A stretch of DNA of 64,000 bases from Candidatus Tumulicola sp. (GTDB lineage Bacteria; Vulcanimicrobiota; Vulcanimicrobiia; Vulcanimicrobiales; Vulcanimicrobiaceae), in the NCBI GenBank assembly GCA_036490475.1, contig DASXDT010000006.1, positions 248,001 to 312,000 of the forward strand, read 5' to 3'. Below are positions 35,621-59,048 of this stretch, in pieces. The position numbers and the translations under genes were made by a program. Under the pieces are notes generated by a model. It saw nothing but the letters and a program-made list of their open reading frames with translations, searched no databases and was not told the DNA's origin. Numbering within the stretch: the first letter of the stretch is position 1; every line of letters starts with the position of its first letter.

Positions 35621-35672
35621 GTTTCCTCGCAGAGTCGCATCATCATAGGGAAGGCTTGAGATCTATCTTTCA

Positions 35673-36086: not shown

Positions 36087-36208
36087 GAGCACTTGGCGTT
36101 TTGCGCTGCGGCCGCCGAATCGAGTCCGTGGCAAGTAAACACGGCCCGCGAATCGCGAAGCCATGTCGAGTTCTCTTTATCTAAACCGGCGAATGATCTA
36201 TCCGCGTT

Positions 36209-37438: not shown

Positions 37439-37644
37439 TTGTAAAACTCCTAACGCTCGAAAGAGATCGCATTGGGTGCGGGGACTCGTCGAGACCGAGT
37501 ATGCGCCCGGTACGGAACGCCCGTCAATCCGGAGTGGGGCAATCCAAAACGAGCGAAACCAGACTACTCCGAGCGACCGACACGTGAAGGCCGCTCCGCG
37601 AGACTGGCTGGCCTCACCACTTAAATCGATCTAACGTGCATGTG

Positions 37645-39117: not shown

Positions 39118-39138
39118 GAGACCCCAAATTTTATGAAG

Positions 39139-39516: not shown

Positions 39517-39532
39517 CGCTCCTCCGAGAGTG

Positions 39533-39552
39533 ACTACTACGAATCTAGTAGT
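39533..39552. promoter_or_regulatory. BlaI-type operator
   Basis: Inverted repeat ACTACTA (39533-39539) / TAGTAGT (39546-39552) with a six-base spacer, 16 bp upstream of the blaI start. Size and sequence resemble the TACTA/TAGTA-rich sites bound by BlaI and MecI. Confidence 0.65.
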
Positions 39553-39714
39553 CAGTATCAACTCTTTGGGAAACTTTGTCAAGTCGACTGGTGGAAGGTT
39601 GGATTTTGCGCCACTGCTATCAGATCCAGGCACCGGTAAGGCGCGCCGGTTGCGTACAGCTAAGATGCCCACGGCAATCGGAGTGCCCAGCTGTGGGTTG
39701 CGGTGGACCTTGCG

Positions 39715-42585
39715 CTACTCAATCCAGCGCTGTGCCGCCAGAGCCTTGATCCGACGCGCCGTCTCGCAACGCGGTTCGGAAAAGCGCTTAACGATGTTGC
39801 GCCACGCCCGTTCCGAGATCTGGAGCGCGGCAGCGATCTCCCTCTGGGGCAACTTAGCCAAAAGGGCGATGCACTCGGCCAGGTCGTCGCGCTCGTACTC
39901 GATGGGCAGAACGAAGGTTAAACTGGATCCACGATCTGCGTCGAGGCGATCAACTTCCTTTCCGATGTGTGAAACCGGAACCGACTCGATTGCGAGGCGT
40001 GAAAGCAATCCGATGGTGTGCTCTCCTGCGGGATTCCCATCCTGATCGGCAGCCTTTGCTTCGGGATGCATCTGATACTTTTCAATATACTTATCCAACC
40101 GCATCACGCTGATGGTATCGGCGTGCCCCGTTCCGAACCAGTCGAGGTCAATGCGTTTGCCCGTTCGGAAATCGATCCATTGCAGCTTCATCGATGCATG
40201 AGCATCGTCTTCGCGTGGTGCAATCGGCAATATATCCTTGGGACCAAGTTGAGTGTCTGGCGTTACCGACTGTACGAATCCGAATGGTTTGACGGATTGA
40301 TCGTAGGAACAACCTTCGTTGAATGCTTTCATGCGTTGGTAGATCGCCGGCTGGCTGATGGGGAACCTACGTCGCATCGGAAGGTCGAAGTCGATCAGGG
40401 CTTTTGATTCCTCTCGTTGCGCTTTACTCACCCTCAGATTGTCAATCAGGATCTTGAGCCAGGCATTGCGCGCGAGGTTCTTCGTTGTTTCGGACGGCGT
40501 TCGTCCGATGATTGCTCCCAACGCGCTTTCCATCGCTTTCACGATCTCGATACGTCGATTGGGCAACCATTTGAATAGCACATACCGTTTGGCTGAGATT
40601 GCAAAGCATCGAAGGTTCGGATGCTTCGGATGCTCTCTCTTAAGTAGATGTGGAACGACCGAACGGTCATAGGGACTAAGGGCGTTGAACTGCTCGCGAA
40701 TCTCTTCGACTTCTGCCTCCGAGATCGCGGGAATGTCTTTCGGGCAGTCCGGCCCGCAGGTGATTGCCAGACTGTCGGTATCGCAGAACGCGAACGATCC
40801 GCCTCGTTTGGTGACTTCCGATTCGAGCATTGCTAGCATCAAGCGGGCGCCGCCGGTCACGAGGGTTGCAATGATCGGATTGAAATAGCTGCCGGGCCGT
40901 TCATCGTGAATATTGGGCGATGGAAAAATCTCGTCCGAGAACACCGTGCCCGGTGTTACGGTCTTGCGCGTGTTTCCGGGCTTCACGTTGACCTCAGCAT
41001 ATATTCCGTATGAGCCGCTGTTCAGGAACAGCTTGAGTCCCATCTCTAACGGCTTCAGGGCTTCGTCCGCTTCTGGATCATTCTTGATCTTTTGGCGTTC
41101 CTCCACAATGGTCTTGAAAAACGGCTGGCTCGAACGCAACGGAAATTTGTTGCGAAACAAGACCGTCTTCGAACGGCGCTTGCCTCTGGTGACGACGCGC
41201 ATCGCTTTGTGGATGGTCGGCGATGGTCCGCCAAGCAGCATTCCCGCCAGGACATCGGCCAATGTATACCAGCGCAGTTCCTTCGTCCGAATGGGCGACA
41301 CGGCAATCGTATACGGGTCCTTGTCCTTCTCGCGCATGCGGATCGGCAAGATGGCGCCGTTCGGGTCCAGCTGGACCAAGCAGTTGAGCTTCGGCCAGAT
41401 CTTCGGATCGAACAGCGAGATGTAGCGGCTACCGCTATCCATTCGGGCCACAAGGGCCGTCACGTCGGCTGTTGCGTCTTCCAGGTCGATTACCGGGGAA
41501 GTCAACACTCTGTCGAGCCGCTGTAGGCAAAAGATCGTCGGGTACATCGAGGTGAAGTCGAGCACCCAAACCGGAACGTCCGTCTTGCGAACGCGCACAT
41601 CTGATCTCCCACCGAAGTACGCAGAAAGAAACCAGCCGAGATGCTCGGGCGAGAAGTCCGGTTGCTTTTCGAGCAGTGGAACGATGCCTAGTTGTTGCAG
41701 ATAGGCTTTCGCTACGCTGGCCGTCGAGTACAGGCGCCCCATGTAGCGCGAATGCTTCGGCTTTCTTCGTTCGTTCGCAAACGTCGCGAAGGGATGCATC
41801 GAATATTCCTCGCGCAACGCTCTGTACAATGCCCAGGTGGCTCGCACGTCCTGACGGCCGTAGGTCAATGCCGCGCGACTAATCGATCCAAGTTCGGGCG
41901 CTTCCATCTTGTGGGTGAATGCATTGAATGCTTTCCCGGCGCTTTTGAGCCTATGCCGTTCTCCGGTAAAGGCTCGCGTGACGGCGCTGAGATCGCAAAA
42001 GCGCCCATGGAAGAATGGCGTTTCCCAGTCGTAGAGTTTACGTTTCGGCGTGAAGCCGATGAAGGCGGCATTCCCAGATGGAGATTCGATTCGAAGATCG
42101 TGCCACGTCAAGCGACGGCTCAAGGCGAATGTGAACTTGCGGCGATTGCGCCCGGATCCGCATCGAGCAAGATAGGCGATCCGGCTCAGATCGAATGGGA
42201 GATTGAAGCCGACGCAGACCGCTCCACGCAGATAGACCTCCGGGTAGAACATGTCTTCTACGAATTGCTCGCGGCTGTACAGCTTCAGATTACATCGCGC
42301 GGCGTATTCGGTTACGCATTCCATTTCGGATTGATCCAGCAGATCTGAGACTATCATCGCTTCCTGCACCATTCGATCCCGGATGTATAGCCGAAAGAAG
42401 CCGAAGAGAAGGCGCTGGGCGGTGTCTGTCGTGGTTTCCGTATCAAATACTAGGGCGCGCTCGCCGTAGGGCGTCTTGCGCCATCCAGGGCCTTTTGTTC
42501 GGTTCTTCGGTTCGACGCGTTCGGGCTTGTTTGGCTCCACCCAGGCGCGCACGGCGCTTTGCCGAGTAACCCATGGTGCACTCAT
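39715..42585 (-). CDS. Family B DNA polymerase with 3'-5' exonuclease
   Basis: 956 residues with all family B motifs. Exo I is FDTET (Asp48, Glu50), Exo II GFNLPFD (Asn128, Asp132), Exo III YGRQD (Asp246), motif A DFTSMYPTIF (Asp343), motif B KLFLNSGSYG (Lys518 to Gly527) and motif C FCDTDS (Asp602, Asp604), then SAKRY (Lys666). It is therefore probably an active proofreading polymerase. The 175-residue spacing between motifs A and B is large and could hold an insertion such as TPR1 of protein-primed enzymes; priming mode is undecided. Overlaps the HNH gene by 4 bp. Presumed role: replicating or repairing the element around integration. Confidence 0.88.
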   Translation of the reverse strand: MSAPWVTRQSAVRAWVEPNKPERVEPKNRTKGPGWRKTPYGERALVFDTETTTDTAQRLLFGFFRLYIRDRMVQEAMIVSDLLDQSEMECVTEYAARCNLKLYSREQFVEDMFYPEVYLRGAVCVGFNLPFDLSRIAYLARCGSGRNRRKFTFALSRRLTWHDLRIESPSGNAAFIGFTPKRKLYDWETPFFHGRFCDLSAVTRAFTGERHRLKSAGKAFNAFTHKMEAPELGSISRAALTYGRQDVRATWALYRALREEYSMHPFATFANERRKPKHSRYMGRLYSTASVAKAYLQQLGIVPLLEKQPDFSPEHLGWFLSAYFGGRSDVRVRKTDVPVWVLDFTSMYPTIFCLQRLDRVLTSPVIDLEDATADVTALVARMDSGSRYISLFDPKIWPKLNCLVQLDPNGAILPIRMREKDKDPYTIAVSPIRTKELRWYTLADVLAGMLLGGPSPTIHKAMRVVTRGKRRSKTVLFRNKFPLRSSQPFFKTIVEERQKIKNDPEADEALKPLEMGLKLFLNSGSYGIYAEVNVKPGNTRKTVTPGTVFSDEIFPSPNIHDERPGSYFNPIIATLVTGGARLMLAMLESEVTKRGGSFAFCDTDSLAITCGPDCPKDIPAISEAEVEEIREQFNALSPYDRSVVPHLLKREHPKHPNLRCFAISAKRYVLFKWLPNRRIEIVKAMESALGAIIGRTPSETTKNLARNAWLKILIDNLRVSKAQREESKALIDFDLPMRRRFPISQPAIYQRMKAFNEGCSYDQSVKPFGFVQSVTPDTQLGPKDILPIAPREDDAHASMKLQWIDFRTGKRIDLDWFGTGHADTISVMRLDKYIEKYQMHPEAKAADQDGNPAGEHTIGLLSRLAIESVPVSHIGKEVDRLDADRGSSLTFVLPIEYERDDLAECIALLAKLPQREIAAALQISERAWRNIVKRFSEPRCETARRIKALAAQRWIE

Positions 42586-43247
42586 GGCGTGCTCGCGGTC
42601 GGATGCGGTAGCTCCAGAACAGGAGTTGCGGGAAGCATGGTCCCGTAGTCCCTGCCGTACCTGGATACGAGGTGGGCATCAGCCCGGACGTTCCACAAGG
42701 CCCACAGGATAAGACCGGCACTGAGGACACCAAGAAAGACGGCGCGCGGCATCTGGTCATTGGCGCCGTCCCAGAAGGCTATCATCCCAATGATGGCGGC
42801 GGCGCCGAACTCAAACGCCGCCTGCAGTTCCAGCGCGCGCCGATTCGAATCGCGTAACCGTAGCGCGGCCATCGGCCCAACCTCGGCGCTTTGCGACTTG
42901 ATCGCGTGGTGATTGGAGCAAAGAGGCACTCGGAACTCGCTGTTGGCGGCGTTCTCGACGTGGTCCAGTTCCAGGATCCGGACCTCCGACTCACCGCACA
43001 CCACGCACATTGGTTTGGAGTAGCCGGCCATTTCGAAACGCCGCATCTTTTGCTTGCGGCTCTTGTCCGTCACCGTCTTGTTCCGCCCCTTACAGTTGCG
43101 GCACAAAATCGATTCGCAAGCATTACGGGGCTGGCACAGCATGCCGATCTCAGCATTGCCACACGTTACGCATTGTGGATCATCGACGCCGAAGCGCTGC
43201 TCCTTGCGGATTCGCGCGTCCTTTAATGCGGTAGAGTAGTCGTTCAT
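42582..43247 (-). CDS. HNH endonuclease with zinc ribbon and two membrane segments
   Basis: 221 residues. A zinc-binding part (CVTCG at 26-30, LCRNCKGR at 48-55) precedes an HNH core: CVVCG (81-85), LELDHVENAAN (His96) and LCSNHH (Cys110, His113, His114). After residue 140 come two hydrophobic helices (FEFGAAAIIGMIAFW and AVFLGVLSAGLILWALW). HNH nucleases cut DNA and are common casposon cargo; a membrane-anchored one is unusual. It overlaps both neighbours by 4 bp, so all three minus-strand products are coupled. Confidence 0.85.
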   Translation of the reverse strand: MNDYSTALKDARIRKEQRFGVDDPQCVTCGNAEIGMLCQPRNACESILCRNCKGRNKTVTDKSRKQKMRRFEMAGYSKPMCVVCGESEVRILELDHVENAANSEFRVPLCSNHHAIKSQSAEVGPMAALRLRDSNRRALELQAAFEFGAAAIIGMIAFWDGANDQMPRAVFLGVLSAGLILWALWNVRADAHLVSRYGRDYGTMLPATPVLELPHPTASTP

Positions 43248-43738
43248 GCCGCTGCCTCCGGCGCATAGATATCAGCAAATGAAACTGCACCAGCGCGGCC
43301 CAGGCGATCCAGCACCTTTGGATCCGTGACGAACTCGAACGTCTCACCTTTGCTCCGAACGTGCTTCCCTCGAAAGCGTTCCAGCGCGGTGGTTTCGCCG
43401 TTGCGGTAGTAGTCCCGGGCAGCGTTGTTAAAGTCGCTCACCCGCGACGCCGTTCGAGAGCTGCGCGTGGTGACCGTCACTTCGCCCTGGGCCGTCAGCA
43501 TTCGTAAGCGCCGCACCAGATGATCGGTGCGCTTCACATCCAGCCGTCCGGAGCGGACCTCCAGCGCTGACCCTGCATGGCGCTTCACCGTCTTGAGGGT
43601 GGTGCCCGTCAGTTTGGCCGCCTTCGTCATGGAGAGGGCTGGGTTGCGCCGCTTCATGCTAATTGCGTCGAGCGCCCGGCGCCGGGCGTCCTCTTTGAAG
43701 AATATCGCGCGTAGGTCGAGCGTTTGCTGTACTGCCAT
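43244..43738 (-). CDS. HTH DNA-binding protein of the module
   Basis: 164 residues from the ATG at 43738, which has AAAGGAGG nine bases upstream and matches the only possible start in copy 2; the frame runs on to 43867. A helix-turn-helix is visible at about residues 36-60 (MTKAAKLTGTTLKTVKRHAG), followed by a basic region (RTDHLVRRLRML) and a C-terminal domain with VSDFNNAARDYYRNGETTAL and FRGKH. First gene of the minus-strand operon; probably a regulator or an end-binding accessory protein (inference). Confidence 0.78.
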   Translation of the reverse strand: MAVQQTLDLRAIFFKEDARRRALDAISMKRRNPALSMTKAAKLTGTTLKTVKRHAGSALEVRSGRLDVKRTDHLVRRLRMLTAQGEVTVTTRSSRTASRVSDFNNAARDYYRNGETTALERFRGKHVRSKGETFEFVTDPKVLDRLGRAGAVSFADIYAPEAAA

Positions 43739-43844
43739 CGAGCGGGCCTCCTTTGACCCGATGCCATCTAACGTACCGCCGAAATAGACTTCTAGCTCGA
43801 CAGTTTCGCGCGGAGCCAAAACGGATCGGGTCGAATACTGACAG
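43739..43844. promoter_or_regulatory. Divergent promoter region, copy 1
   Basis: This 106-bp gap separates the two operons of the module. A stretch of 21 bp at 43804-43824 (TTTCGCGCGGAGCCAAAACG and one more G) is identical to 59115-59135 in copy 2, while the rest of the gap has diverged. It probably holds a shared regulator or polymerase site. Confidence 0.5.
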
Positions 43845-44846
43845 GTGGAATCACGCATTCGGGTCACCGAAGCGATGGCAGTCTTGAAGGGGAATGGCGT
43901 TCAGATCAGCCCCGATAAGCTTCAGCGTTGGCGCTGCTTCGGAATCGAGTCCGTTCGAGTAGGGCGCGCCAACTATCTTGATCCGCCCGTCTACCGAAAT
44001 CTGCAGTATATCCTAGAGATCGAACGGAGATTTGGATTCTCGCGCGACCACGACGGGTTAGCGCTCGAACTCGCTTATAGAAGATATCCGACCGTCCCGT
44101 GGGATCGCGTACATGACGGGGCTTGCAAAGAGCTACGAATAATGTTTAACAAGTTCAGCCGTGAGCTCTACCGCATCGATAACTCCAGCGGCTTCGTAGC
44201 GCCGCGTGCGAATCATCTAGCCCGCATGATTGCGCGCCGATACATCCCGGACCGCAAAATAAAAGAAGGTCCGTCTCGGAAAGTCGCGCGCGACATTCTG
44301 GTCAGAGTTGCTGAACTGTGGCTCCGTGTAACCTATAACAACGAATCTATCAAGGATTATCAAATTCGCCCAATCTTGTACATAATGGGTGGCCACGACC
44401 CACTTGTCATCCCGTTGGCGGCCAGCATTGCGGTACTACTGAACATCGTCGTTCCGATACTACGAGTAAATCATCGTAACTCGTTGCATGAGGTTTTGGA
44501 ATCAGATTTCGATATTGCTAGAATTCAGGCGACGGTTTCGGCTATGCGTAGTATCTTCGCCCTCAATCAACAGCTCTGGATCGCCGGCGTCGCTGCCTTC
44601 GAGTCTCATACAGTGGACTATCCATCGATTGAAGACGTCGAACTTGGTTCGGACAGAACCGATATTTCGCTGCGCAGCATGATCTATGCCGGGGCGGCGT
44701 ATCTCGAAGCTGACCCAGCGGCAAAACCGGCTATGGACTTGTTTAAGGCTGGCACGCCACCGGACTTGTCTGTGCCGATCGCACAGCTCGCCGGACTCAA
44801 GAATGCTATCACGACCGTTTTTTCCGGGAGCTTGTCGAATGACTGA
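43845..44846 (+). CDS. MerR-like HTH protein preceding Cas1
   Basis: 333 residues, GTG start. The first 35 residues resemble a MerR/excisionase winged helix (VTEAMAVLKGNGVQISPDKL then QRWRCFGIESV). The next block (YRNLQYILEIERRFGFSRDH) is shared with copy 2. The remainder is helical and has no recognisable domain; a hydrophobic stretch (LVIPLAASIAVLLNIVVPIL) lies near residues 185-205. Its end overlaps the Cas1 start by 8 bp, as in copy 2. It is far less conserved between the copies than Cas1, so it may carry element-specific binding. Confidence 0.72.
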   Translation: MESRIRVTEAMAVLKGNGVQISPDKLQRWRCFGIESVRVGRANYLDPPVYRNLQYILEIERRFGFSRDHDGLALELAYRRYPTVPWDRVHDGACKELRIMFNKFSRELYRIDNSSGFVAPRANHLARMIARRYIPDRKIKEGPSRKVARDILVRVAELWLRVTYNNESIKDYQIRPILYIMGGHDPLVIPLAASIAVLLNIVVPILRVNHRNSLHEVLESDFDIARIQATVSAMRSIFALNQQLWIAGVAAFESHTVDYPSIEDVELGSDRTDISLRSMIYAGAAYLEADPAAKPAMDLFKAGTPPDLSVPIAQLAGLKNAITTVFSGSLSND

Positions 44847-46200
44847 CACGATTCTGACCGTCGACGGTTACAACGCGTCGTTGAACGTTGAGCGTGGCCA
44901 TCTGATTGTACGCGATGGGTTCACACAAGGTGACCGGCGTGAGATTCGCTTTCCACGCGGCCGCTGTAGAGTGAACCGGATCGTGGTCCGTGCCCCAGGC
45001 GGGACGGTCACAATGGACGCGATCAGGTGGTGCGCCGATATGGGCATCGCACTTTCGTTCATGGACTCGGACAGCCGCCTCCTGAACTGTATGGTTCCGG
45101 ACGCCCCGCACGACGGTCCAGTGAAACGTGCCCAGGCAATTTCCGCCGTCACTGACGATGCGCCGCACCTGGCACGGTATCTCCTCGGGAAGAAGATGGA
45201 CTCGCAGATTCATGCCATGGAACGAGACTTTCCGCGTCTCGGAATAGGAACAGTCTCGGGGAATTCCGCGAGTACCGCGCAAGTCCACGCTTGCAAAGCG
45301 GGACTTTCGAAGGCGACAACGCTCGTAGACTTCCTGGGACTGGAAGGGCGTGCTGCGCAGTTCTATTGGGACGTGCTGGTCGAGACGCCGCTTCCGTGGA
45401 GACCGTGGGCTTTGTCTCGGATTCCGGCCCATTGGGCCGCGATCTCGCCGCGAACTTCCGGACGCCGCGACAGGGTTCGAGACGCTACGGACCCGTTCAA
45501 CGCCGTACTCAACTATGCGTATACATTGCTAGAGGTCGAGACTCGGATCGCCTGCGAGGCTGTTGGCCTGGATCCAGACCTGGGACTGATCCACATTGAC
45601 GACCGACTTCGAGAGTCGTTCATTTACGATCTGCTGGAACCGTTGCGAGCAAAAGCCGATGTCTGGGCTCTGGAACTATTGCGGAAAGAGACGATGCGAC
45701 CGGTGATGTTCCATGAGCTGCGAGATGGCATCGTGCGCTTAGATCCTGACCTCGCCGGTCTTCTCGCGAAGTCGCTGATGCCGCGCTTCCGGAGCGCTGC
45801 GCTGGATCTCTCTAGCGACTATGCAAAGCAGCTACGTCGGATCACAGTACAGCGGCGATTGCTACGTGAGGCACCGAAGCCGATTGAGCAGCGTCGCGAC
45901 ATGTGCGAGAACTCGCGCTGCGGATACTGCAAAGAACGGTTACCGCGAAAGCGGTTAAAATACTGCGGTCGTACCTGCTATCTGAAGTACAGCACTGAAG
46001 TTGCCAGACCTATAGAGAAGGCGCATGCGCGACTTGCGGAGCTACGGGCTTCTGGGTTAAGCCCAGGGCATGGAGGCGAAGCGGCGAAGCGGCGCGGCTC
46101 TGCCCTCTCTGAGAATAATAGACTTGGGATTACCGGGAGGCGAGCTCGGCCGGTGGGCGAGAATGCGTCGATACGTTCAAAAAGGCCCACGCAAAAATAG
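44839..46200 (+). CDS. cas1: Cas1-family integrase (casposase-like) with C-terminal zinc finger
   Basis: 453 residues from the ATG at 44839. The N-terminal beta domain (TILTVDGYNASLNVERGHL, then GGTVTMDAIRWCADMGIALS) and the helical catalytic domain are those of Cas1. The metal ligands align as Glu169 (GLEGRAAQFYW), His252 (DLGLIHIDD) and Asp264 (FIYDLLEPLR). After residue 355 comes a non-Cas1 tail: a C-x2-C...C-x3-C zinc finger (Cys361, 364, 376, 380) and a basic end (LSPGHGGEAAKRRG). No Cas2 or CRISPR array accompanies it. By family knowledge it should catalyse DNA integration; casposases often have an extra C-terminal DNA-binding domain. Confidence 0.87.
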   Translation: MTDTILTVDGYNASLNVERGHLIVRDGFTQGDRREIRFPRGRCRVNRIVVRAPGGTVTMDAIRWCADMGIALSFMDSDSRLLNCMVPDAPHDGPVKRAQAISAVTDDAPHLARYLLGKKMDSQIHAMERDFPRLGIGTVSGNSASTAQVHACKAGLSKATTLVDFLGLEGRAAQFYWDVLVETPLPWRPWALSRIPAHWAAISPRTSGRRDRVRDATDPFNAVLNYAYTLLEVETRIACEAVGLDPDLGLIHIDDRLRESFIYDLLEPLRAKADVWALELLRKETMRPVMFHELRDGIVRLDPDLAGLLAKSLMPRFRSAALDLSSDYAKQLRRITVQRRLLREAPKPIEQRRDMCENSRCGYCKERLPRKRLKYCGRTCYLKYSTEVARPIEKAHARLAELRASGLSPGHGGEAAKRRGSALSENNRLGITGRRARPVGENASIRSKRPTQK

Positions 46201-46332
46201 CCCGATGAGGCGTCGAGCTCTCGCTCGTCAATCGTCGTGCCGGGTGGAGCGCGAACTTAGTCTCGGAGGGTAGCCCTACGATTGAACGAATCCTTTTGGT
46301 GGCATGAAAACGTTATGGATGAGGAACCACCC

Positions 46333-46584
46333 ATGACCACAGCACTCGCTTCTCCCGCAAGTCCGCCTGCTCTCGACCCCGCCTACGCCGAATCGATCAC
46401 TCAGCGACTCAGCGATCTTGGGGTGAAGCCCGTCGGAATAGTCAATCGGCAGCTCGTTCTACGCATCGAGGATACCGGGAGTGTAAACGCGCTCGGCCCG
46501 GACCGTTTCGTTGAAACGCTGCTGGATCGATTGAGAAGTGAGCAGCGGCTTTGGGAAAGCATTGATTCAATCAACTTTACCTAA
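46333..46584 (+). CDS. Small hypothetical protein
   Basis: 83 residues from the ATG at 46333 (GAGGA upstream); the frame is open from 46282. Ala/Pro-rich start, then PAYAESITQRLSDLGVKPVG, IVNRQLVLRIEDTGSVNALG and an amphipathic end. No family recognised. First of four overlapping plus-strand genes directly after module 1, so it could be cargo of that module. Confidence 0.5.
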   Translation: MTTALASPASPPALDPAYAESITQRLSDLGVKPVGIVNRQLVLRIEDTGSVNALGPDRFVETLLDRLRSEQRLWESIDSINFT

Positions 46585-47374
46585 ATCGTCCGCTCCGCGG
46601 TTGCCGAGGGTTGCCGTGATTCTAACGAGCGCGTGCTACGCCGCGCTCGTTTTTTCTATCTGCGCTTTCGCATTTTGGCTTCCCGAACACCCGCCGTTTT
46701 TTCGCTGTCTCTTCGCCCAGGCGGAGTGCTCCGCCGCACTCGCAACCTGGGCGCTCGTCGCAGTTAGCACCGTAGCATTCCTGGCCGCATACTATGCGGC
46801 TCTAAAAGCCTCGGAGGCCTTCTTGGTGTCTGCTCAAGCGTTGGAAGTCTCGCAGAACGCTTTTGACCTTGAAAGCCGAGCAATTCTTGGCCAGTCGTTA
46901 TGCGATCATAACGACAATCAAAAACCGCGCGTCACATTGTACGTGGACACTCAAGCGCGAACGGTTGAGTATGCAGCGCCGACCGTTTTAGACGACAAGG
47001 ACTATTTCTCGATCCACTACGATTTTCTAAGCCTAGGTCGCACCCCGCTTGAGCAGGTATTCGCTACCGTGGAAATTTTCCCGACAGCCGCGGAATCATT
47101 TAAGTCGGAAATATTAGTTGGAAACCTGACATCACAAAAAGATGCGCACATAGAGCTTCGTATCAAGCGGGTTCTAAACCCACCGCAGATAGAGTGGCAT
47201 TCAGTAGCGCGCGATACGCGAGGCGAATTGGCGTATCACCCGGTACCGCGGATCGCTGTGCAAGTCGTCATTGATAAGAATTCGGTCGCTGACATTAAGT
47301 ACTTTCCCGTGTTGGCGCCGCCCGATGAACAGATCTCACAAAAGCAAGTAGACCCGGCGGATAAGAGTGCCTGA
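46538..47374 (+). CDS. Membrane protein of unknown function
   Basis: 278 residues with two transmembrane helices near the N-terminus (VAVILTSACYAALVFSICAF and TWALVAVSTVAFLAAYYAAL) and a cytoplasmic or periplasmic domain of about 180 residues with beta pattern (KPRVTLYVDTQARTVEYAAP). GTG start overlapping the preceding gene by 47 bp; a later start is possible. It overlaps the next gene by 8 bp. The layout, two helices plus a soluble domain, is common in unassigned defence cassettes, but nothing specific is recognised. Confidence 0.6.
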   Translation: MSSGFGKALIQSTLPKSSAPRLPRVAVILTSACYAALVFSICAFAFWLPEHPPFFRCLFAQAECSAALATWALVAVSTVAFLAAYYAALKASEAFLVSAQALEVSQNAFDLESRAILGQSLCDHNDNQKPRVTLYVDTQARTVEYAAPTVLDDKDYFSIHYDFLSLGRTPLEQVFATVEIFPTAAESFKSEILVGNLTSQKDAHIELRIKRVLNPPQIEWHSVARDTRGELAYHPVPRIAVQVVIDKNSVADIKYFPVLAPPDEQISQKQVDPADKSA

Positions 47375-47657
47375 TCAACCAAAGTCGCCTCAAGACTACA
47401 GACTCGACAGCTACCTCTGTTGGCCAAAAACTTGGTTCTGGCGGGGAGTCTTGGTACTGGTGCCGCTCGCGCTCGCGTGGATCTCGTACCATCAGGGAGC
47501 CGAGCTAGGGAATAATTCTTGCCCCACGGAGGATGCGGCTAGTTACAGCAGACAAAACTGCCAAACGATTCTTCGTAAGAACTTCGAGCACCATTTAAAC
47601 AGTATCGATTACACCGTGCGGAGCATATTGAAAAAGGAACGATTCCGTGGCCATTAG
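47367..47657 (+). CDS. Single-pass membrane protein
   Basis: 96 residues, GTG start, with one transmembrane segment (WRGVLVLVPLALAWISYHQG) and a soluble C-terminal half containing two cysteines (NNSCPTEDAASYSRQNCQTI). It overlaps both neighbours (8 and 11 bp). Function unknown. Confidence 0.55.
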   Translation: MPDQPKSPQDYRLDSYLCWPKTWFWRGVLVLVPLALAWISYHQGAELGNNSCPTEDAASYSRQNCQTILRKNFEHHLNSIDYTVRSILKKERFRGH

Positions 47658-47991
47658 CGTTTACGCGTCAGCGTCGGCAACGCCCGAGAGTCTACTTGAA
47701 AGCCTCAAACAGAAGGTTCGCGTGGGCGATATTGAGACCTGGAGTATCGACTCGGACGGCGACTTTACTCACACACCGCAACAATGGAAGGACCAAGCTT
47801 ACTTGCGTCCGCGTATCGTGAATGGCGTCCTGCAATTCTTCTTAATCGGACGAAAAAGCGTTAAAATGTCCAAGGAAGTGTACGGAGTCTATCATGGACG
47901 CTTCTCCGAAATGCTTTTAACACACTTTGACACTTCGATGCGCGAACTGAAACTTTCGTCCCTGCGGGCACCTGGCGACGTATTTACATAG
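47647..47991 (+). CDS. Small soluble hypothetical protein
   Basis: 114 residues, GTG start overlapping the previous gene by 11 bp. The fold appears alpha/beta (ISVYASASATPESLLESLKQ, then YLRPRIVNGVLQFFLIGRKS and a final amphipathic helix MLLTHFDTSMRELK). Family unknown. It ends the four-gene cassette, with a terminator-like hairpin 24 bp downstream. Confidence 0.55.
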   Translation: MAISVYASASATPESLLESLKQKVRVGDIETWSIDSDGDFTHTPQQWKDQAYLRPRIVNGVLQFFLIGRKSVKMSKEVYGVYHGRFSEMLLTHFDTSMRELKLSSLRAPGDVFT

Positions 47992-48355
47992 AATATGGAG
48001 CCCAGTAATCATTGAGGCCAGAAACTGGCCTTTGGTGTTTCTCGCGCGGCCACGCAGATAGCGTTGCTCATGAGTTTATCCACTGCAGTGGCCGACCAAC
48101 TCAGGGAAACAGCGAACGCTCCTAGCCGACTGCGTCTAACAAGCTGGGCATCGCCGGAGCCGAAATAGACCCCAAGAGAGCTTTATCACGTGGGTATCCG
48201 ATTGCGAGATCTAGCATGCCTGGGAAAGAAGGGGGCGGCCTCCCTTTTGGCGAGTTCACATACACGCTTCATCGTCTGACCTATCTTGGCGGTTTGAAAA
48301 TCCAATGGACGTACAAGATTATCGCCGGAGCGTGAAGGGGAAATATACTTAACTC
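47992..48355. other. Intergenic region
   Basis: These 364 bp have no convincing gene. They hold the hairpin at 48015-48031 near the left edge and an AT-rich stretch before 48356 that probably contains the promoter of the OLD-like gene (GGGGAAATATACTTAACTC). Nothing else was recognised. Confidence 0.5.
48015..48035 (+). terminator. Terminator-like hairpin
   Basis: AGGCCAG / CTGGCCT pair with an AAA loop, followed by a short T-containing stretch (TTTGGTGTTT). It ends the 46333-47991 cassette. Confidence 0.55.
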
Positions 48356-50098
48356 ATGCCATGCGTGATTGAAACGCTGTCATTTAGCGACGGTTCCGAT
48401 GTAAAACTGTCCAGATTGACGATTATCGTAGGCCCTAATAATGGAGGCAAGAGCAGAGCCCTTCGCGACATCGAAGCGGTTGTCACAAATAACATTCATC
48501 ATCGCCCGCAGGTTGTGACGGGAGCAAGGCTCATTCTGCCAAGTACCCTTGAGGAGGCCGTGAAACTAAGTGGCTTTCGATATACCGAAAAAGGGCTTGA
48601 CGGTTTTAGAGTGGAGGGCCTTGCATCATCTATGTCGGAGCCCTTCGCCCGAGATAATCTCTCAAAAAAGGCGGTGGTCGATATTTTCTCGGCTGCAGCA
48701 TCCGCGGCACAACGAACGCAGCAGATACTCAGTATTTTTGGCCAAGGATTCGTTATGCGTCTCGGAACCGAGGAACGTCTGGCAATATCGAGCCTGAAGC
48801 AAGTCGCCCCGGCGGGAGCCCCCACTTCGCTAATAGATCTTTTGTTTCGTGGAGGTGCGAACGCGGAGCGATCACTTGCCTCCGCAATATTGCAAGCATT
48901 TCCAAGCTCTTATTTAAGGCTTGATTATAGCACTCAGTCGCGCGTCACTCTACGCGTCGGTGATTCGGACATCTTAACAGTAAGCATCGATCCTCGCGAA
49001 CAAGTCCTAGACTTCGAGCCATTTTCGATGTTAGAGTCGCAAGGAGACGGGCTCAGGAGCTACGCGGCACTTTGCTTAGGCCTCGATATTGCGAAACGTC
49101 CGGTGACACTGATAGATGAGCCTGAGACTTTCTTACACCCGCCGCAAATCCAGGCTCTGGGCAGATATATCCATGAATCTGGAAGTCAACAGATTATAAT
49201 CTCAACACACAGCGTCGACCTAGTCCAAAGCATAGCTCATGCCTCGTCTGAAGCGACAATTATTCGTCTCACCCGAACGGAGAACGTAAATCACGCACGA
49301 GTTGTCTCGCCAAGCAGATTAGAAGATTTAATTTCAGACCCGTTGGTCTCATCCGCTCGTTGCCTCGATGCGATGTTCTACCGCGGGGCTGTAATTACAG
49401 AGGGCGACTCGGATAGACTGCTCTACCAACGAGTGTATGATCGTCAGTTTAGAGGTGATGATATTCATTTCCTAAATGCTCAAAGCAAGCAAACTATTCA
49501 CAAAATAGCACGCGCTTACAACGAAATGGGAGTTCCTTGCGCTGCCATAGTGGATTTCGACATATTAAACGACGCTCGAACCTTCACCGAGTTACTGAAT
49601 GCCTTGAGTATTGAGGGCTCTTCAAGAGAAAAAGCGATTGCTTTGCGAGCACGGATTGCTGGAGATATAGAGGGGCCCGGAAAGCTTGAAGAAAGGCGCG
49701 CCAGCTATGTCAAGCAAGTTGAAACGACCCAAAGAAGAATCGACTCAACGACTGATGTTCAAGCACAAATGCAAGACCTCTCCGACCTGGGTGATAAACT
49801 ACGCTTTGCAAACGATCCCTGGCTTGACGCAAAGCGCAATGGCGCCGGCGCACTACAGGATGATTCGAGCGTTGCTTTTTTCGAGCTGTGTGACATTGTC
49901 GAGCGTTCAGGTTTGTTCATCGTTCCAGTAGGCGAACTCGAGGGTTGGCTCCATGACGCGGTGAGTACATCGCGTAAGAACAAGGCAAACTGGCTAGCAG
50001 CCTCGCTGAAAGCACTTCCCCATCTTTTAACGGAGCCGACAGATGTCTGGGCTTTCATTGCGCGCGTTCGCGAATATTTGATCGGTCAGAGTAATTAG
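48356..50098 (+). CDS. OLD-family ATPase/TOPRIM nuclease
   Basis: 580 residues. The N-terminal ABC/SMC-type ATPase has Walker A VGPNNGGKS (residues 25-33), Walker B TLIDEPETFLHPPQ (about 250-263) and the H-loop ISTHSVD (about 282). The C-terminal TOPRIM domain shows AVITEGDSDRLLY (Glu at about 349) and a downstream VDFDILND (about 400). OLD nucleases act in anti-phage defence, alone or with a helicase as in Gabija; no helicase is adjacent. Base composition is lower in GC than in the chromosomal half. Convergent with the SIR2 gene. Confidence 0.85.
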   Translation: MPCVIETLSFSDGSDVKLSRLTIIVGPNNGGKSRALRDIEAVVTNNIHHRPQVVTGARLILPSTLEEAVKLSGFRYTEKGLDGFRVEGLASSMSEPFARDNLSKKAVVDIFSAAASAAQRTQQILSIFGQGFVMRLGTEERLAISSLKQVAPAGAPTSLIDLLFRGGANAERSLASAILQAFPSSYLRLDYSTQSRVTLRVGDSDILTVSIDPREQVLDFEPFSMLESQGDGLRSYAALCLGLDIAKRPVTLIDEPETFLHPPQIQALGRYIHESGSQQIIISTHSVDLVQSIAHASSEATIIRLTRTENVNHARVVSPSRLEDLISDPLVSSARCLDAMFYRGAVITEGDSDRLLYQRVYDRQFRGDDIHFLNAQSKQTIHKIARAYNEMGVPCAAIVDFDILNDARTFTELLNALSIEGSSREKAIALRARIAGDIEGPGKLEERRASYVKQVETTQRRIDSTTDVQAQMQDLSDLGDKLRFANDPWLDAKRNGAGALQDDSSVAFFELCDIVERSGLFIVPVGELEGWLHDAVSTSRKNKANWLAASLKALPHLLTEPTDVWAFIARVREYLIGQSN

Positions 50099-50197
50099 AA
50101 GGTGGATGACACTCTAGAAGAGGCAGGTGAGCAGTCCAGGCCACTAACTTATGTTTTCGGGGACACGGTGAGCGCCGGAATAGCGAAGGTGAAGCGG

Positions 50198-50275
50198 ACC
50201 GGAAGTTTGAAGCCACTTTGTAATATCCCATGGGTTTCGCAGAGGGATATTACAAAGTGACTTCAAACTTCCGGT
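50198..50275. repeat. Fold-back palindrome made of clostripain-gene sequence
   Basis: Left arm 50198-50229 (starts ACCGGAAGTTTGAAGCC) pairs with 50244-50275 over 32 bp with one mismatch; the loop is 14 bases. The loop plus right arm, 50230-50275, equals 34964-35009 of the truncated peptidase gene with one mismatch. The left arm is the exact reverse complement of 34978-35009. It lies between two convergent genes and could also act as a terminator, but its origin is clearly gene-derived. Confidence 0.85.
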
Positions 50276-50301: not shown

Positions 50302-52446
50302 CTAATCATCCTCGCTCCCATCGAGGATATCTTTCGCATACTCTAGCGACTCCTCAGCGGTAAGCATGCCGTCTCCTTCGGATTTCGCAGTAGCATCTGA
50401 ACGATACGCCTTTGCGCTTTCAATATCTCCACGCTCCTCTTGCAATTTAGCTAGCGTTGCAAGGAGCTCGACAGCATTCTCGAGTGGAAGTTTCGGATTT
50501 GATCCGACCAAGCGAGAAGCAGTAGTTAGTATAAGAAAAGCGGCGTCAAGATTTCCCTCCTTCCAACAAATCAAACTTATATGCGAAGCGACGGTATAAA
50601 TCATCTCGATTGCAGTTCTCGACAGATCGCCGACAGATAGATCCGCCGCCTCATTGAACAGCTTAATTGCCTCCACTATATTGATTTTTGCGTCGTACGA
50701 GGCTTCAGCCATCATCAGGGTTACCATTTTGGAACGAACCTCGGTTCGTTCATCCTGCGCATAGCGTCGGATGATGTCGATTGCACTCTCTTCCGATGTG
50801 AAATCCATCGATAACCGCGACCATCGCACTTCGGCGTCTAGTCTAAGTGCGACATCGATGGGACGATCAGACGTTTCTAGCGCAGCCGCAACTTGTGCGT
50901 ACAAAGTCCGGGCCTGCTCCGATTCGTCATGCTGTTCGAACCAGTAACCTAGGCCGACTTGAGCCAAGAAAACAAAATACGAGGTCTGTTCGAAGGCTCT
51001 GTAGCGATTTATAAGCTCTTCCAGAAGATCTCTTGTCCTTGCGCTCTGCCCAGCAGCAACGATCTCCGAAATTAATGCGGACGCACCTACTTCAAGAAGG
51101 GTAGCGTCGTTGTGTATTTCAAATAGTTGCCAGCAAAATTGTTCGATTAACTCGTTGGCCCGTCGTTGGTCTTCCTTCTGTAGATGCCTGCCCAGTCGTT
51201 GCAAGCCGACGACAAGGAACTTCAATTCATCCGCCTTGAGCAGTGGTATTCTCGCTACGAGCGAATTTGCGGCCTGAAGAGCCAACTTTTCATTCAGTTC
51301 CAGTAAATGCTTTCGAAAGACGTTTAAATACGATTCAGGCGAATCGCTCAGAAGCAGTTGACGAGCTCGCTGGACTTGATCGACAACATGTCTGAAATCG
51401 TAAATGTCCGCCGTACGGTTGTCATTCGTCGGAGGCATCACATCGCTAAACTTCTTCGCCAACGATCCAAGCGGGTCTAGAACGAAACTAGGTAGGGGAG
51501 CTTTCGTCACTTTTATTAGTTCTTGAAGGACCTCCGCTGCGTCAAGCGATTCGGAAACATCAACAATTCGCTGATCGACCGGATCCGTTAATGTAACCTT
51601 CGTAAAGTTGGCTTGGGGATTGTCGGTGTTGATAAGGCTCTCATCGGATGAAACGAAAGTGATGTCTTCACTGTTGCGAACATCAAGTGGTAGTAACCGG
51701 ATCTGTTGCCGATTGTGAAGAAACCAATAAGCAGTAAAGCGAAGTGGATCTTTAAGTCTTCTTCGAAAGGCCGTCATGAAGACGTCGTTTGCCCAGCCCG
51801 AGTAGCCGATAATAATGGGTGCCGTTTGGGCTAGCCATCGATCGAGCAGTGACATCATCGATGACGATGTTGCTCTGTCTTCCCGCCTGCGTTCTTGTAC
51901 GCGACCCTTCAAATTAGCGCAGTCATAGAACCGGAACGAGCCGTGAATGTGAACTATTTGTGTTTCCTCCACGTTAACCTGAATTCTTTCGGTCGTTCTA
52001 GGGTGGTCGCACAACGTATAACGCTGCTCGAAAAGATCGAGGGATCGCGTCAATAGATCATCAAAATTGGTTGTAAATGCAGTATTTGCCACTTTGCCAG
52101 CACAAAGCAGATGGGCAAGACGCAAGTTAGCTGGAGTGATATACGCGGAGTCCACTAGCGTAGTTAAGTAGGGTTTCAACAGCGATGGGTCCGGGAAGGC
52201 CGAGTTGAGCCAGTATGAGTAGGTGTCAAGGGCGTTTCCAGACGGCGCTGCTGGTTCCGGGTAACGCTCGTCGGATGCCCGCAGATCCGCGTATTTCTGT
52301 TCACACTGCTTGACGATTTCAGACGCAGTCGGGATTGACGGGAACGACAGTCCAGCGCCCACCATGAAAAAGTAAGGTGTCCAGCGGGACTCAGCTAGCG
52401 TGCGCTGGATGTTCGCCATCGCGTGGGGTAAACTGATTACTCGCAA
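50302..52446 (-). CDS. SIR2-domain NADase-like protein with TPR-like C-terminus
   Basis: 714 residues, TTG start (ATG at 52419 is an alternative). The SIR2 fold is shown by FFMVGAGLSFPSIPTASEIV (GAG at 30-32), FTTNFDDLL (Asn127, Asp129), IVHIHGSFRF (His168) and IIIGYSGWANDVFM. The C-terminal 350 residues are helical repeats, TPR-like, as in sensor parts of defence proteins. Bacterial SIR2 proteins of this kind deplete NAD during phage infection; that role is inferred here. No dedicated partner is adjacent besides the convergent OLD-like gene. Confidence 0.83.
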   Translation of the reverse strand: MRVISLPHAMANIQRTLAESRWTPYFFMVGAGLSFPSIPTASEIVKQCEQKYADLRASDERYPEPAAPSGNALDTYSYWLNSAFPDPSLLKPYLTTLVDSAYITPANLRLAHLLCAGKVANTAFTTNFDDLLTRSLDLFEQRYTLCDHPRTTERIQVNVEETQIVHIHGSFRFYDCANLKGRVQERRREDRATSSSMMSLLDRWLAQTAPIIIGYSGWANDVFMTAFRRRLKDPLRFTAYWFLHNRQQIRLLPLDVRNSEDITFVSSDESLINTDNPQANFTKVTLTDPVDQRIVDVSESLDAAEVLQELIKVTKAPLPSFVLDPLGSLAKKFSDVMPPTNDNRTADIYDFRHVVDQVQRARQLLLSDSPESYLNVFRKHLLELNEKLALQAANSLVARIPLLKADELKFLVVGLQRLGRHLQKEDQRRANELIEQFCWQLFEIHNDATLLEVGASALISEIVAAGQSARTRDLLEELINRYRAFEQTSYFVFLAQVGLGYWFEQHDESEQARTLYAQVAAALETSDRPIDVALRLDAEVRWSRLSMDFTSEESAIDIIRRYAQDERTEVRSKMVTLMMAEASYDAKINIVEAIKLFNEAADLSVGDLSRTAIEMIYTVASHISLICWKEGNLDAAFLILTTASRLVGSNPKLPLENAVELLATLAKLQEERGDIESAKAYRSDATAKSEGDGMLTAEESLEYAKDILDGSEDD

Positions 52447-54979: not shown

Positions 54980-57895
54980 TCATGCAGACCTTGGTGCCCG
55001 GACAGCCGGAAATCCGTCCGTGGCGGAAAGAGCAACTTGGCGTCGCCGTGCGGATGCTCTGATCTTTCGCGCCGTTGCGTCACGCGGCTGAGAGGCGCTC
55101 TTTACGATGCTTCGCCACGCGCGTTCCGAAATCGCGATCTCAGCCGCCACCTCGGCTTGCGGAAACCTAGAGAGCGACACGATGCATTCATCGAGATCGT
55201 CGCGCTCGTATTCGACGGGAAGGATTGACACGATACTCGACCCTCGATCTTCGTCGAGGCGATCCACTTCCTTCCCGATGTGCCAAACAGGCTCCGACTG
55301 AATGGCAAGCCGCGACAGCAGTCCGATGGTAAGCCCCCCCGCGACATTGCCGTGCTGATCGGCGGCTTTAGCTTCGGGATGCTCCTGATACTTTTTGATA
55401 TACTCGTCTAATCGCATCACACTAACGGTGCCCGCATGCCCCGTTCCGAACCAATCGAGTTTAACGCGCTTCCCCGTTCTAAAATCGATCCATTGCAGCT
55501 TCATTGACGCCTGGGCGTCGTCTTCGCGTGGCGCGATGGGCAATACATCCTTGCGCCCTACTTGCGTTTCAGGCGTCACCGTCTGTACGAATCCGAATGG
55601 TTTAACGGATTGGTCGTAAGAACGGTCTTTGTTGAATGCAGCCATGCGTTTGTAGATCGCCGGTTGGTTGATTGGAAACTTGCGACGCATCGGAAGATCG
55701 AAGTTGATCGATGCTTCGGACTCCCTTCGTTGTGCATCACTTACGTTCAAATTATCCATCAGGATCTTGAGCCAGACATTTCGCGCGAATGCCTCCGTTC
55801 GTTCGGTTGGCGTTCGACCGATGATCGCTCCCAGGGCGCTTTCCGATGCTTTCACGATCTCGATACGCCGATTGGGCAACCACTTGAATAGGACGTACCG
55901 TTTGGCTGAGATGGCAAAGCATCGAAGGTTCGGATGCTCCGTATGCTCCTTCTTGAGCAGATTGGGGACAATCGAACGATGGTACGGATTCAATGCATTA
56001 AACTGCTCTATGATCTCATCGACATCCGATTCACTTATCGATGGAATGCCTTTGGGGCAATCGGGTCCACCATTGATGGCAAGGCTATCGGTATCGCAGA
56101 AGGTGAAGCTGCCGCCCCGCTTGGCGACCTCCGATTCGAGCAAAGCCAGCATAAGACGAGCGCCGCCCGTCACTAGCGTTGCAATGATCGGATTGAAGTA
56201 GGCGCCGGGGCGTTCGTCATGGATATTAAGCGACGGGTAATTCGTGTCCGAAAAGACGTTCCCCGGCGCGTCGGTCTTCCCGGTTTTGGTCGGCTGCACG
56301 TTGATCTCCGCGAAGATTCCGTACGCACCACTGTTTGCGAATATTTTTAAGCCCAGTTCTAACGGCTTGAGGGTCTTGTCGGCTTCGCTCTCGCTCTTTG
56401 CTTTTTGACGTTCCTCCACGATCGTCTTGAAGAAAGGGAGGTTCGAATGCAACGGGATTAACCCGCGAAAGAGCGCCACCTTCGACTTGCGCCGTCCTTT
56501 CGGCACAACACGAACGGCTTTGAGAATGGTCGGCGCTGAACCACCTAACAGCATTCCCGCCAAAACGTCGGCCAATGTATACCAACGCGGCTCTTTGGTC
56601 TGGATCGGTGACACGGCAATCGTATACGGTTCGTTATCCTCTGCCCGCATCCGAATGGGTAGGATCGCGCCGTGCGGATCGAGCTGTACCAAACAGTTGA
56701 GTTTCAGCCACAGCTTCGGATCGAAGAGTGAGACGTAGCGGCTACCGCTAGCCATTTGCGTCACAAGGGCCGTCACGTCGTCCGTCGCGTCTTCTAGGTC
56801 GATCTCCGGCGCCGTGAGCACCCTGTCGAGCCGCTGAAGGCAGAAGATCGTTGGATACATGGACACGAAGTCCAGCAGCCAGACTGGCACGTCCAACTTA
56901 CGGACCCGCACATCCGCTCGTCCACCGAAATAAGCGGAAAGGAACCATCCAAGATACTCGCGAGAAAAGCGCGGCTGCTTTTCCAAGAGCGGCGCGATGC
57001 CCAGCTGGCGGAGATACTCCTTTGCCACGCTGGCCGTCGAACTTAAACGACCCATGTACCTCGAATGCTTCGGTTTCTTTCGCTCGTTGGCAAACGTTGC
57101 AAACGGATGGTGGATGTATTCCGTTCGTAGGGCCTTGTAGAGCGCCCAGGTCGCTCGTACATCTTGACGACCATAGGTCAGTGATGCGCGCGTGACTGAT
57201 CCGAGTTCCGGAGCCTCCATCTTGCGAGTATATGCACGGTACGCTTTCCCGGCGCTCTTGAGTGTATTCCGCTTCCCGTTAAAAGCCCGCGCAACGGCGC
57301 TGAGATCGCAGAAGCGGCCATTGAAAAACGGCTGTTCCCAATCGTATAGCTTGCGCTTAGGTGTGAAACCGATGAATGCAGCGCTGCCCGTGGTTGATTC
57401 GATGCGAAGATCGTGCCACGTCAACCGACGGCTCAACGCAAAGGTAAACTTGCGCCGATTGCGCCCGGAACCGCATCGAGCCAAATATGCGATCCGGCTG
57501 AGGTCGAATGGGAGATTGAAGCCGACGCAGACGGCACCCCGAAGGTAGACTTCCGGATAGAAGATCTGTTCAACGAACTGCTCGCGACTGTACATCTTGA
57601 GCCCGCATCGCGCGGCGTATTCTGTGACGCATTCCATTTCGGATTGATCGAGCACGTCCGAGACGATCAATGCCTCTTCGGCCAATCCATCGTGAATGTA
57701 TAGTCGAAAGAAGCCAAACAGAAGGCGCTGTGCTGTGTCGGTCGTTGTTTCCGTATCAAATACCAGGACGCGATCACCATAGGGCGTCTTGCGCCATCCA
57801 GGGCCTTTCTTGGCTTCCTTACGCTCGGGGCGTTCCGAGTGCGGCTCTACCCAGGCGCGCACTGCGCTTTGCCGAGTCACCCATGGCGGCGTCAT
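54980..57895 (-). CDS. Family B DNA polymerase with 3'-5' exonuclease
   Basis: 971 residues from the ATG at 57895, which overlaps the HNH gene by 4 bp as in copy 1; a longer frame to 58084 lies inside that gene. All motifs are intact: FDTET (exo I), GFNLPFD (exo II), YGRQD (exo III), DFVSMYPTIF (A), KIFANSGAYG (B), FCDTDS (C) and SAKRY. The C-terminus is about 17 residues longer than in copy 1 and diverges there (VALSATDGFPAVRAPRSA). Probably active. Confidence 0.88.
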   Translation of the reverse strand: MTPPWVTRQSAVRAWVEPHSERPERKEAKKGPGWRKTPYGDRVLVFDTETTTDTAQRLLFGFFRLYIHDGLAEEALIVSDVLDQSEMECVTEYAARCGLKMYSREQFVEQIFYPEVYLRGAVCVGFNLPFDLSRIAYLARCGSGRNRRKFTFALSRRLTWHDLRIESTTGSAAFIGFTPKRKLYDWEQPFFNGRFCDLSAVARAFNGKRNTLKSAGKAYRAYTRKMEAPELGSVTRASLTYGRQDVRATWALYKALRTEYIHHPFATFANERKKPKHSRYMGRLSSTASVAKEYLRQLGIAPLLEKQPRFSREYLGWFLSAYFGGRADVRVRKLDVPVWLLDFVSMYPTIFCLQRLDRVLTAPEIDLEDATDDVTALVTQMASGSRYVSLFDPKLWLKLNCLVQLDPHGAILPIRMRAEDNEPYTIAVSPIQTKEPRWYTLADVLAGMLLGGSAPTILKAVRVVPKGRRKSKVALFRGLIPLHSNLPFFKTIVEERQKAKSESEADKTLKPLELGLKIFANSGAYGIFAEINVQPTKTGKTDAPGNVFSDTNYPSLNIHDERPGAYFNPIIATLVTGGARLMLALLESEVAKRGGSFTFCDTDSLAINGGPDCPKGIPSISESDVDEIIEQFNALNPYHRSIVPNLLKKEHTEHPNLRCFAISAKRYVLFKWLPNRRIEIVKASESALGAIIGRTPTERTEAFARNVWLKILMDNLNVSDAQRRESEASINFDLPMRRKFPINQPAIYKRMAAFNKDRSYDQSVKPFGFVQTVTPETQVGRKDVLPIAPREDDAQASMKLQWIDFRTGKRVKLDWFGTGHAGTVSVMRLDEYIKKYQEHPEAKAADQHGNVAGGLTIGLLSRLAIQSEPVWHIGKEVDRLDEDRGSSIVSILPVEYERDDLDECIVSLSRFPQAEVAAEIAISERAWRSIVKSASQPRDATARKIRASARRRQVALSATDGFPAVRAPRSA

Positions 57896-58557
57896 GACGC
57901 GCTCCCTGTGGACGCCGGTAGCTCCAGCACCGGGGTCGCAGGAAGCAGCGCCCCATAATCCGAGCCGTACGTGGAAGCTAGGTGTGCGTCGGCTCGCAGG
58001 TTCCACAACGCCCACAGGATCAGACCTGCGCTGAAGACACCAAGAATCACCGCGCGCTCCGCCTGCTCGTTGGCGCCGTCCCACACGGCAATCATGCCGA
58101 TGATCGCGGCAGCGCCGAACTCGAATACTGCCTGCAGTTCAAGTGCACGCCTGTTTCGGTCGCGCAGACGCAGTTGAGCCATCGGGCCCACCTCGGCGCT
58201 TTGCGACTTGATCGCGTGATGATTGGAACACAGAGGAGCCAGAAGCATGCTGTTGGCGGCGTTCTCCACATGGTCCAGTTCCAGGATCCGGATCTCCGGC
58301 TCACCGCACACCACGCACGATGGTTTGAAGTAACCAGCCTTTTCGAACCGCCGCATTTTTTGCTTGCGGCTCTTCTCCGTCACAGTCTTTGCACGTCCCT
58401 TACAGTTGCGGCACACAATCGTCTCGCAGTCTTTGGGCGGCTGGCACAGCATGCCGATGTCAGCATTGCCGCACGTCACGCATTGTGGGTCATCGACGCC
58501 GAAGCGCTGCTCCTTGCGGATTCGTGCGTCTTCCAGTGCGGTTGAGTATTCGATCAT
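57892..58557 (-). CDS. HNH endonuclease with zinc ribbon and two membrane segments
   Basis: 221 residues, the same length as in copy 1. The zinc ribbon (CVTCG, VCRNCKGR), the HNH core (CVVCGEPEIRILELDHVENA, then LCSNHH) and both helices (FEFGAAAIIGMIAVW, AVILGVFSAGLILWALW) are kept. Conservation of the membrane segments in both copies argues that membrane attachment matters. Overlaps polB and the HTH gene by 4 bp each. Confidence 0.85.
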   Translation of the reverse strand: MIEYSTALEDARIRKEQRFGVDDPQCVTCGNADIGMLCQPPKDCETIVCRNCKGRAKTVTEKSRKQKMRRFEKAGYFKPSCVVCGEPEIRILELDHVENAANSMLLAPLCSNHHAIKSQSAEVGPMAQLRLRDRNRRALELQAVFEFGAAAIIGMIAVWDGANEQAERAVILGVFSAGLILWALWNLRADAHLASTYGSDYGALLPATPVLELPASTGSAS

Positions 58558-59048
58558 GCCGCCGCCTCTGGCGCGTAGATTTCAGCGAACGAAACCGCTC
58601 CGGCGCGGCCCAGGCGATCCAGCACCTTTGGATCCGTGACGAACTCGAACGTCTCACCCTTGCTCCGAATGTGCTTGCCGCGAAAGCGTTCCAGCGCTGA
58701 GGTATCGCCATTGCGGTAGTAATCCCGCACCGCGTTGTTAAAGTCGCTCACCCGCGACGCCGTTCGAGAGCTGCGCGTGGTGATCGTCGCTTCGCCCTGG
58801 GCCGTCAGCATTCGTAAGCGCCGCACCAGATGATCGGTGCGCTTCACGTCGAGCCGTCCAGAGCGGACCTCCAGCGCTGCCCCAGCATGGCGCTTCACTG
58901 TTTTGAGGGTGGTGCCCACGAGTTTGGCCGCTTTCGTCATGGAGAGGGCTGGGTTGCGCCGCTTCATGCTAATCGCGTCGAGCGCCCGGCGCCTGGCATC
59001 CTCTTTGAAGAATATCGCTCGCAGATCGAGCACTTGGTTCTTGGGCAT
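58554..59048 (-). CDS. HTH DNA-binding protein of the module
   Basis: 164 residues, TAGGAGG upstream of the ATG. It is almost identical to the copy 1 protein after the first few residues (MTKAAKLVGTTLKTVKRHAG; VSDFNNAVRDYYRNGDTSAL). First gene of the minus-strand operon. Confidence 0.78.
   Translation of the reverse strand: MPKNQVLDLRAIFFKEDARRRALDAISMKRRNPALSMTKAAKLVGTTLKTVKRHAGAALEVRSGRLDVKRTDHLVRRLRMLTAQGEATITTRSSRTASRVSDFNNAVRDYYRNGDTSALERFRGKHIRSKGETFEFVTDPKVLDRLGRAGAVSFAEIYAPEAAA

Follow-up and report, generated by a model that had tools for sequence, protein, structure and literature searches.

The palindromic segment at positions 50198-50275 is almost certainly the seam of two casposons inserted in tandem into a conserved peptidase-like gene of the soil bacterium Candidatus Tumulicola sp. 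It consists of the right terminal inverted repeat (TIR) of casposon 1, a single 14-bp target-site duplication (TSD) shared by both elements and the left TIR of casposon 2. The stretch of DNA analysed comprises 64,000 nucleotides (G000:C6:248001-312000) and is referred to as the window. CRISPR adaptation is proposed to descend from casposons, which are mobile elements that carry Cas1.

Anatomy of the palindromic segment

Sequence comparison within the window reproduced what an earlier note on this DNA had described, i.e., a 46-bp direct repeat with one mismatch (34964-35009 versus 50230-50275) and, at 50198-50229, an exact reverse complement of its last 32 bp. The inverted match even extends to 34 bp (50196-50229 versus 34978-35011), and a perfect match of 32-34 bp far exceeds chance expectation. 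The possibility of a dispersed repeat could be dismissed, because in the genome as a whole (3.3 Mb, 7 contigs) further copies turned up at C6:314041-314086 only. At this third place, just the first 14 bp come after the inverted 32 bp, and the 46 bp therefore separate into a 14-mer and a 32-mer. The order on the contig is gene 5' half, TSD-TIR...TIR-TSD-TIR...TIR-TSD, gene 3' half, with three identical 14-mers and four copies of the TIR. Since the gene continues with its 3' half after the third 14-mer and an intact relative reads through, the 14-mer ATGGGTTTCGCAGA is a TSD and as such host sequence, and the 32-mer GGGATATTACAAAGTGGCTTCAAACTTCCGGT is the TIR of two different tandem elements and as such element sequence. 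Of the palindrome, the host contributes just the 14-bp spacer between the arms. The features are collected in Table 1.

The earlier note had placed the apparent end of the peptidase gene's similarity to its family where the 46 bp end (35009). The similarity in fact stops at 34977, the last of the first 14 bp: past the third 14-mer the gene reads MGFADALSHAGVRWLAASPETMLAPG..., as in intact relatives, whereas the window reads GYYKVASNF..., which is the element end. The idea that the TIR mimics the peptidase gene arose from protein matches running to residues 181-195 and was rejected, because the real gene continues with DALSHAGVRW.

In principle, the local geometry of a direct and an inverted copy with a 14-bp spacer would also fit the earlier proposal of fold-back or template-switch repair, by which a piece of the peptidase gene would have been copied 15 kb away, part of it in inverted orientation. 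This explanation is effectively excluded by the third junction at C6:314041-314086, where another inverted copy and the 14-mer are followed by the in-frame 3' half of the gene, and by the junctions in relatives, in which the TIR-TSD-TIR arrangement recurs with different TSDs. In addition, the 32 bp do not belong to the gene. Of the other earlier suggestion, an integration by-product with captured host sequence, the integration stands but the capture does not: the 32 bp constitute the element's TIR, which marks each of the four element ends in this genome and, in diverged form, element ends in relatives.

Table 1 Features of the split gene and of the two casposons. Positions above 64,000 lie beyond the window.
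Feature	Position	Strand	Basis
Peptidase-like gene, 5' part, codons 1-178, through TSD	34445..34977	+	related to relatives' genes; frame open
TSD copy 1, ATGGGTTTCGCAGA	34964..34977	+	repeat comparison, genome search
Casposon 1, leader-proximal, 15,252 bp	34978..50229		exact 32-bp TIRs, identical 14-bp TSDs
Left TIR, casposon 1	34978..35009	+	repeat comparison
Cargo PIN-domain protein	35673..36164	-	Pfam PIN 2.6e-9
Cargo beta-lactamase-fold serine hydrolase	37645..39117	-	PF00144 1.1e-64
Cargo BlaI/MecI-type repressor	39139..39672	-	PF03965 4.6e-23
Family-B-like DNA polymerase, C-terminal HTH	39715..42585	-	PHROG DNA polymerase 5.4e-13; motifs DFTSMYP, CDTDS read in sequence
HNH-type nuclease	42582..43247	-	PHROG HNH 4.9e-5; sequence LELDH..CSNHH
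Conserved casposon protein p206	43244..43867	-	conserved in most related elements
Variable protein p333, possible DNA-binding factor	43845..44846	+	MerR-like N-terminus by eye
Cas1 integrase (casposase), C-terminal zinc-like motif	44839..46200	+	protein comparison, profile search, alignment
Cargo OLD-type ATPase-TOPRIM nuclease, defence-like	48356..50098	+	profile searches
Right TIR, casposon 1	50198..50229	-	repeat comparison
TSD copy 2, common to both casposons	50230..50243	+	repeat comparison, tandem-junction pattern
Casposon 2, 15,829 bp, ending 2.1 kb beyond window	50244..66072 (G000:C6:314072)		genome search for ends
Left TIR, casposon 2, one mismatch	50244..50275	+	repeat comparison
Cargo SIR2-domain protein, defence-like	50302..52446	-	profile searches
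DNA polymerase	55034..57895 (ORF 54980-58084)	-	79% identical to casposon 1 polymerase
HNH-type nuclease	57892..58557	-	83% identical to casposon 1 HNH
p206	58554..59048	-	92% identical to casposon 1 p206
p333	59156..60163	+	50% identical to casposon 1 p333
Cas1 integrase (casposase), 439 aa	60156..61475	+	PF01867 1.2e-37; best match 6opm casposase 1.7e-20
Cargo AAA ATPase, NsnB-like, defence-like	62300..63691	+	profile searches
TSD copy 3, followed by gene 3' half	66073..66086		genome search

Gene content and comparison with known casposons

The core genes follow each other in the same order in both elements, i.e., polymerase, HNH protein, p206, p333 and Cas1. Together with the shared TSD, this order could be taken to mean that a single casposon was duplicated to give the array, instead of two different casposons having inserted. 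We consider this very improbable, because the core proteins are 50-92% identical (Cas1 86%, polymerase 79%, HNH protein 83%, p206 92%, p333 50%) and the cargo differs, that of casposon 2 also including a trypsin-like protein. Two casposons are thus present, not one duplicated. Among related elements, the conserved core comprises Cas1 with polymerase, HNH protein and p206; matches to p333 were weak or not found.

The best match of Cas1 among solved structures is the casposase of Methanosarcina mazei bound to its integration product (6opm), both by sequence (1.7e-20, up to residue 306 of 439) and by fold (4.9e-13, with a structure model of moderate quality). In an alignment of ten Cas1 proteins of relatives, E169, H252 and D264 proved invariant along with the C-terminal cysteines 361, 364, 376 and 380. 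We take the former three residues to be the Cas1 catalytic set. The polymerase matched Pfam weakly but gave a PHROG match of 5.4e-13, and polymerase motifs are present in every aligned copy; its structure model was poor. CRISPR-like repeats were not found between 30 and 64 kb of the window, and Cas1 thus occurs without a linked CRISPR array. The elements combine the traits that define casposons, i.e., Cas1 without a CRISPR array, a family B DNA polymerase, TIRs at both ends and a TSD of about 14-15 bp. On the basis of sequence we are highly confident that they belong to this known kind of element, with transposition by Cas1 as the predicted mode of movement.

A fixed site, direct repeats and defence-like cargo would likewise be expected for an island mobilized by a tyrosine recombinase, in which the 14-mer would be the att core and the Cas1 genes mere passengers. 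However, Pfam scans, which covered the main genes and not every ORF, matched no recombinase family. Moreover, matching TIRs together with a TSD that is always 14 bp long resemble casposons and not att cores, and it is Cas1 with polymerase, HNH protein and p206 that forms the conserved core, all of which renders such an island extremely unlikely.

The elements resemble family 3 casposons, which likewise live in bacterial hosts, encode Cas1, PolB, HNH and HTH proteins and have TIRs and a TSD of about 15 bp; a zinc-binding domain at the Cas1 C-terminus is shared with AceAut-C1 (Krupovic et al. 2014, PMC4046053). By gene content they are candidate members of this family, with weak HNH and HTH matches. 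The reported family 3 sites are intergenic (PMC6614799), whereas here the middle of a protein gene is hit. With MetMaz-C1 of M. mazei, the elements share a TIR beginning GGGATA, a 14-bp TSD and tandem insertion at the same TSD, which for MetMaz-C1 was demonstrated in vivo (PMC10359463, PMC6977970); tandem casposons are already known in Methanosarcina (PMC10359463). MetMaz-C1 differs in its reported target, which is a tRNA-Leu gene at its 3' end (PMC9939771), and the match to its Cas1 ends before the C-terminal zinc-like part. Family 1 casposons at the aEF-2 gene of Nitrosopumilus also target a protein-coding gene, but at its 3' end and with its integrity kept, and they encode a protein-primed polymerase (PMC4046053). 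The casposons surveyed in 2014 adjoin tRNA or aEF-2 3' ends or are intergenic, and the gene is left intact (PMC4046053). CRISPR arrays, too, would yield the order TSD-element-TSD-element if Cas1 integration is directed by a leader and duplicates the leader-proximal site. The inserts described here, in contrast, are elements of 4-19 kb with TIRs, and the island contains no CRISPR-like repeats. What is new here is the phylum, the target, the recurrent splitting of a gene and the defence-like cargo; a literature search returned no paper joining a casposon with Eremiobacter or WPS-2, although such an absence does not prove that none exists.

The split peptidase-like gene

The 5' part of the target gene is clearly related to the 5' parts of genes for proteins of about 410-450 aa in relatives. 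The 3' half starts in frame within the third 14-mer and stays open for 228 codons, and an intact relative reads CLMDTMGFADALSRAGVRYLAASPETMLAPG at the place of insertion. The earlier note had advised looking for an intact gene in relatives and for the missing 3' half past the window, and both were found. It had also rightly taken the palindrome as a tie between the broken gene and the island. The gene is widely kept, with matches in 51 of 60 genomes searched. A second copy was not found in this genome, and the intact gene is lost to the host. Its label as a clostripain must be regarded as putative: the match to PF03415 (peptidase C11; 11.9 bits, E 0.16) lies under the curated cut-off of 25.8 for membership, leaving only motif-like DHGGG and NQC. 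Just upstream of the split gene (33375-34373 / 34400-34444) lies what is presumably an ordinary chromosomal neighbour, judged by eye to be an NHL-repeat-type protein. ARAGORN detected tRNA genes neither in the window nor in the loci of eight relatives.

The elements reside just downstream of the NQCLM codons, which include the putative catalytic cysteine, and both gene halves are open in all four genomes where both were read, i.e., the present one, G004, G050 and G025. Precise excision is thereby rendered directly testable, and excision of a casposon with an empty target site left behind has been reported for M. mazei (PMC10359463). A reversible switch can be envisaged, in which CRISPR-like, leader-directed insertion beside the codons for the putative catalytic cysteine and precise excision would switch the gene between off and on, with the array growing from its leader side, but we rate this as rather unlikely.

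Two further observations concern this gene in relatives. In G022 (contig C30, L068), one intact copy and one that a casposon interrupts point in opposite directions, about 1.4 kb from each other. In G047 and G048, which belong to another family (L070, L071), the gene breaks off about 60 bp further downstream, after SPET/SPDT codons with ACATGAG. Casposon ends are absent from this break and the sequences past it are dissimilar to each other; it is possibly a second insertion site, used by another element.

Recurrence in relatives and proposed mechanism

In six further genomes of Candidatus Eremiobacterota (G067, G050, G025, G022, G004 and G108), G050 belonging to another family of the class, an element whose TIR begins with GGGATA interrupts the peptidase-like gene at the identical codon. 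At least six other species are affected in this way, at the corresponding 14 bases. A pattern for the site junction gave 13 matches in 117 genomes, compared with 0 for the reversed control. The TSD copies are identical within G004, G050 and G025, for which both ends were read, and within the window's genome but differ between genomes (CTCGGCTTTTCGTC, CTTGGGTTCGCAGA, CTCGGATTTGCCGA), which points to separate insertions at this codon. When named genomes were scanned with a single protein, no match was obtained; alignment then found five Candidatus Eremiobacterota loci. A scan of IMG/VR also returned no match.

The insert in the peptidase gene of G025 (L063/L078, contig C6 near 249-253 kb) has a size of 4,015 bp, diverged TIRs (23/32) and neither Cas1 nor polymerase. 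It is likely a non-autonomous casposon and, lacking Cas1, probably depended on mobilization in trans. A full element resides elsewhere in G025 at a site unrelated to the peptidase-gene target, and target choice is therefore not absolute. Ectopic sites share a motif that spans the 18-bp leader (-18..-1) and the TSD, and most have no clear similarity further upstream. This agrees with the requirement of the A. boonei casposase for a leader to -15 and the leader-TSD border (PMC6614799). The sites in G018, G107 (contig C91) and G099 (L057, L058, L100, L093) appear intergenic, and they resemble the gene over about 40-50 bp upstream of the TSD and no further; for this reason they look like relics of the peptidase gene and not like chance matches.

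The tandem-junction pattern TATCCC-N14-GGGATANTA matched nine times in six genomes (control, 0), and in G062 a run of two complete elements is joined by the end of a third one. We asked whether the leader-proximal element is always the younger one. Identity between left and right TIR is consistent with this in the present genome (32/32 for leader-proximal casposon 1, 30/32 for casposon 2), but not in G062 (25/32 versus 27/32).

We propose that the Cas1 integrase would recognise the leader of about 18 bp and the 14-bp site in the peptidase-like gene, the leader presumably staying conserved because it encodes the NQCLM motif. Cas1 would then join the TIR ends across a 14-bp stagger, and fill-in would duplicate the 14 bp. 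A further casposon could reuse the same leader and site, giving rise to a tandem array with a palindrome at the seam. Three points of this scheme are inferred: site choice by Cas1 alone, copying of the element by the polymerase, and the order of the two insertions. A bacterial casposon lineage thus repeatedly splits a conserved protein gene mid-way, unlike the surveyed casposons, which spare their target genes (PMC4046053). Its elements also line up in tandem at a single leader, with defence-like genes as cargo, and its several natural and ectopic sites provide a data set on leader and target recognition by a Cas1 integrase.

The phylum also harbours a second Cas1 lineage, about 35% identical and about 500-600 aa in length, with a C-terminal zinc-like motif (G000:C6:1735742-1736503; L116, L118, L128, L130, L132-L134). 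A search for the ends of its elements gave no clear TIR. At least six copies are present in G076, and a polymerase is encoded nearby in G020, G062 and on two G076 contigs; the lineage probably represents a second casposon family.
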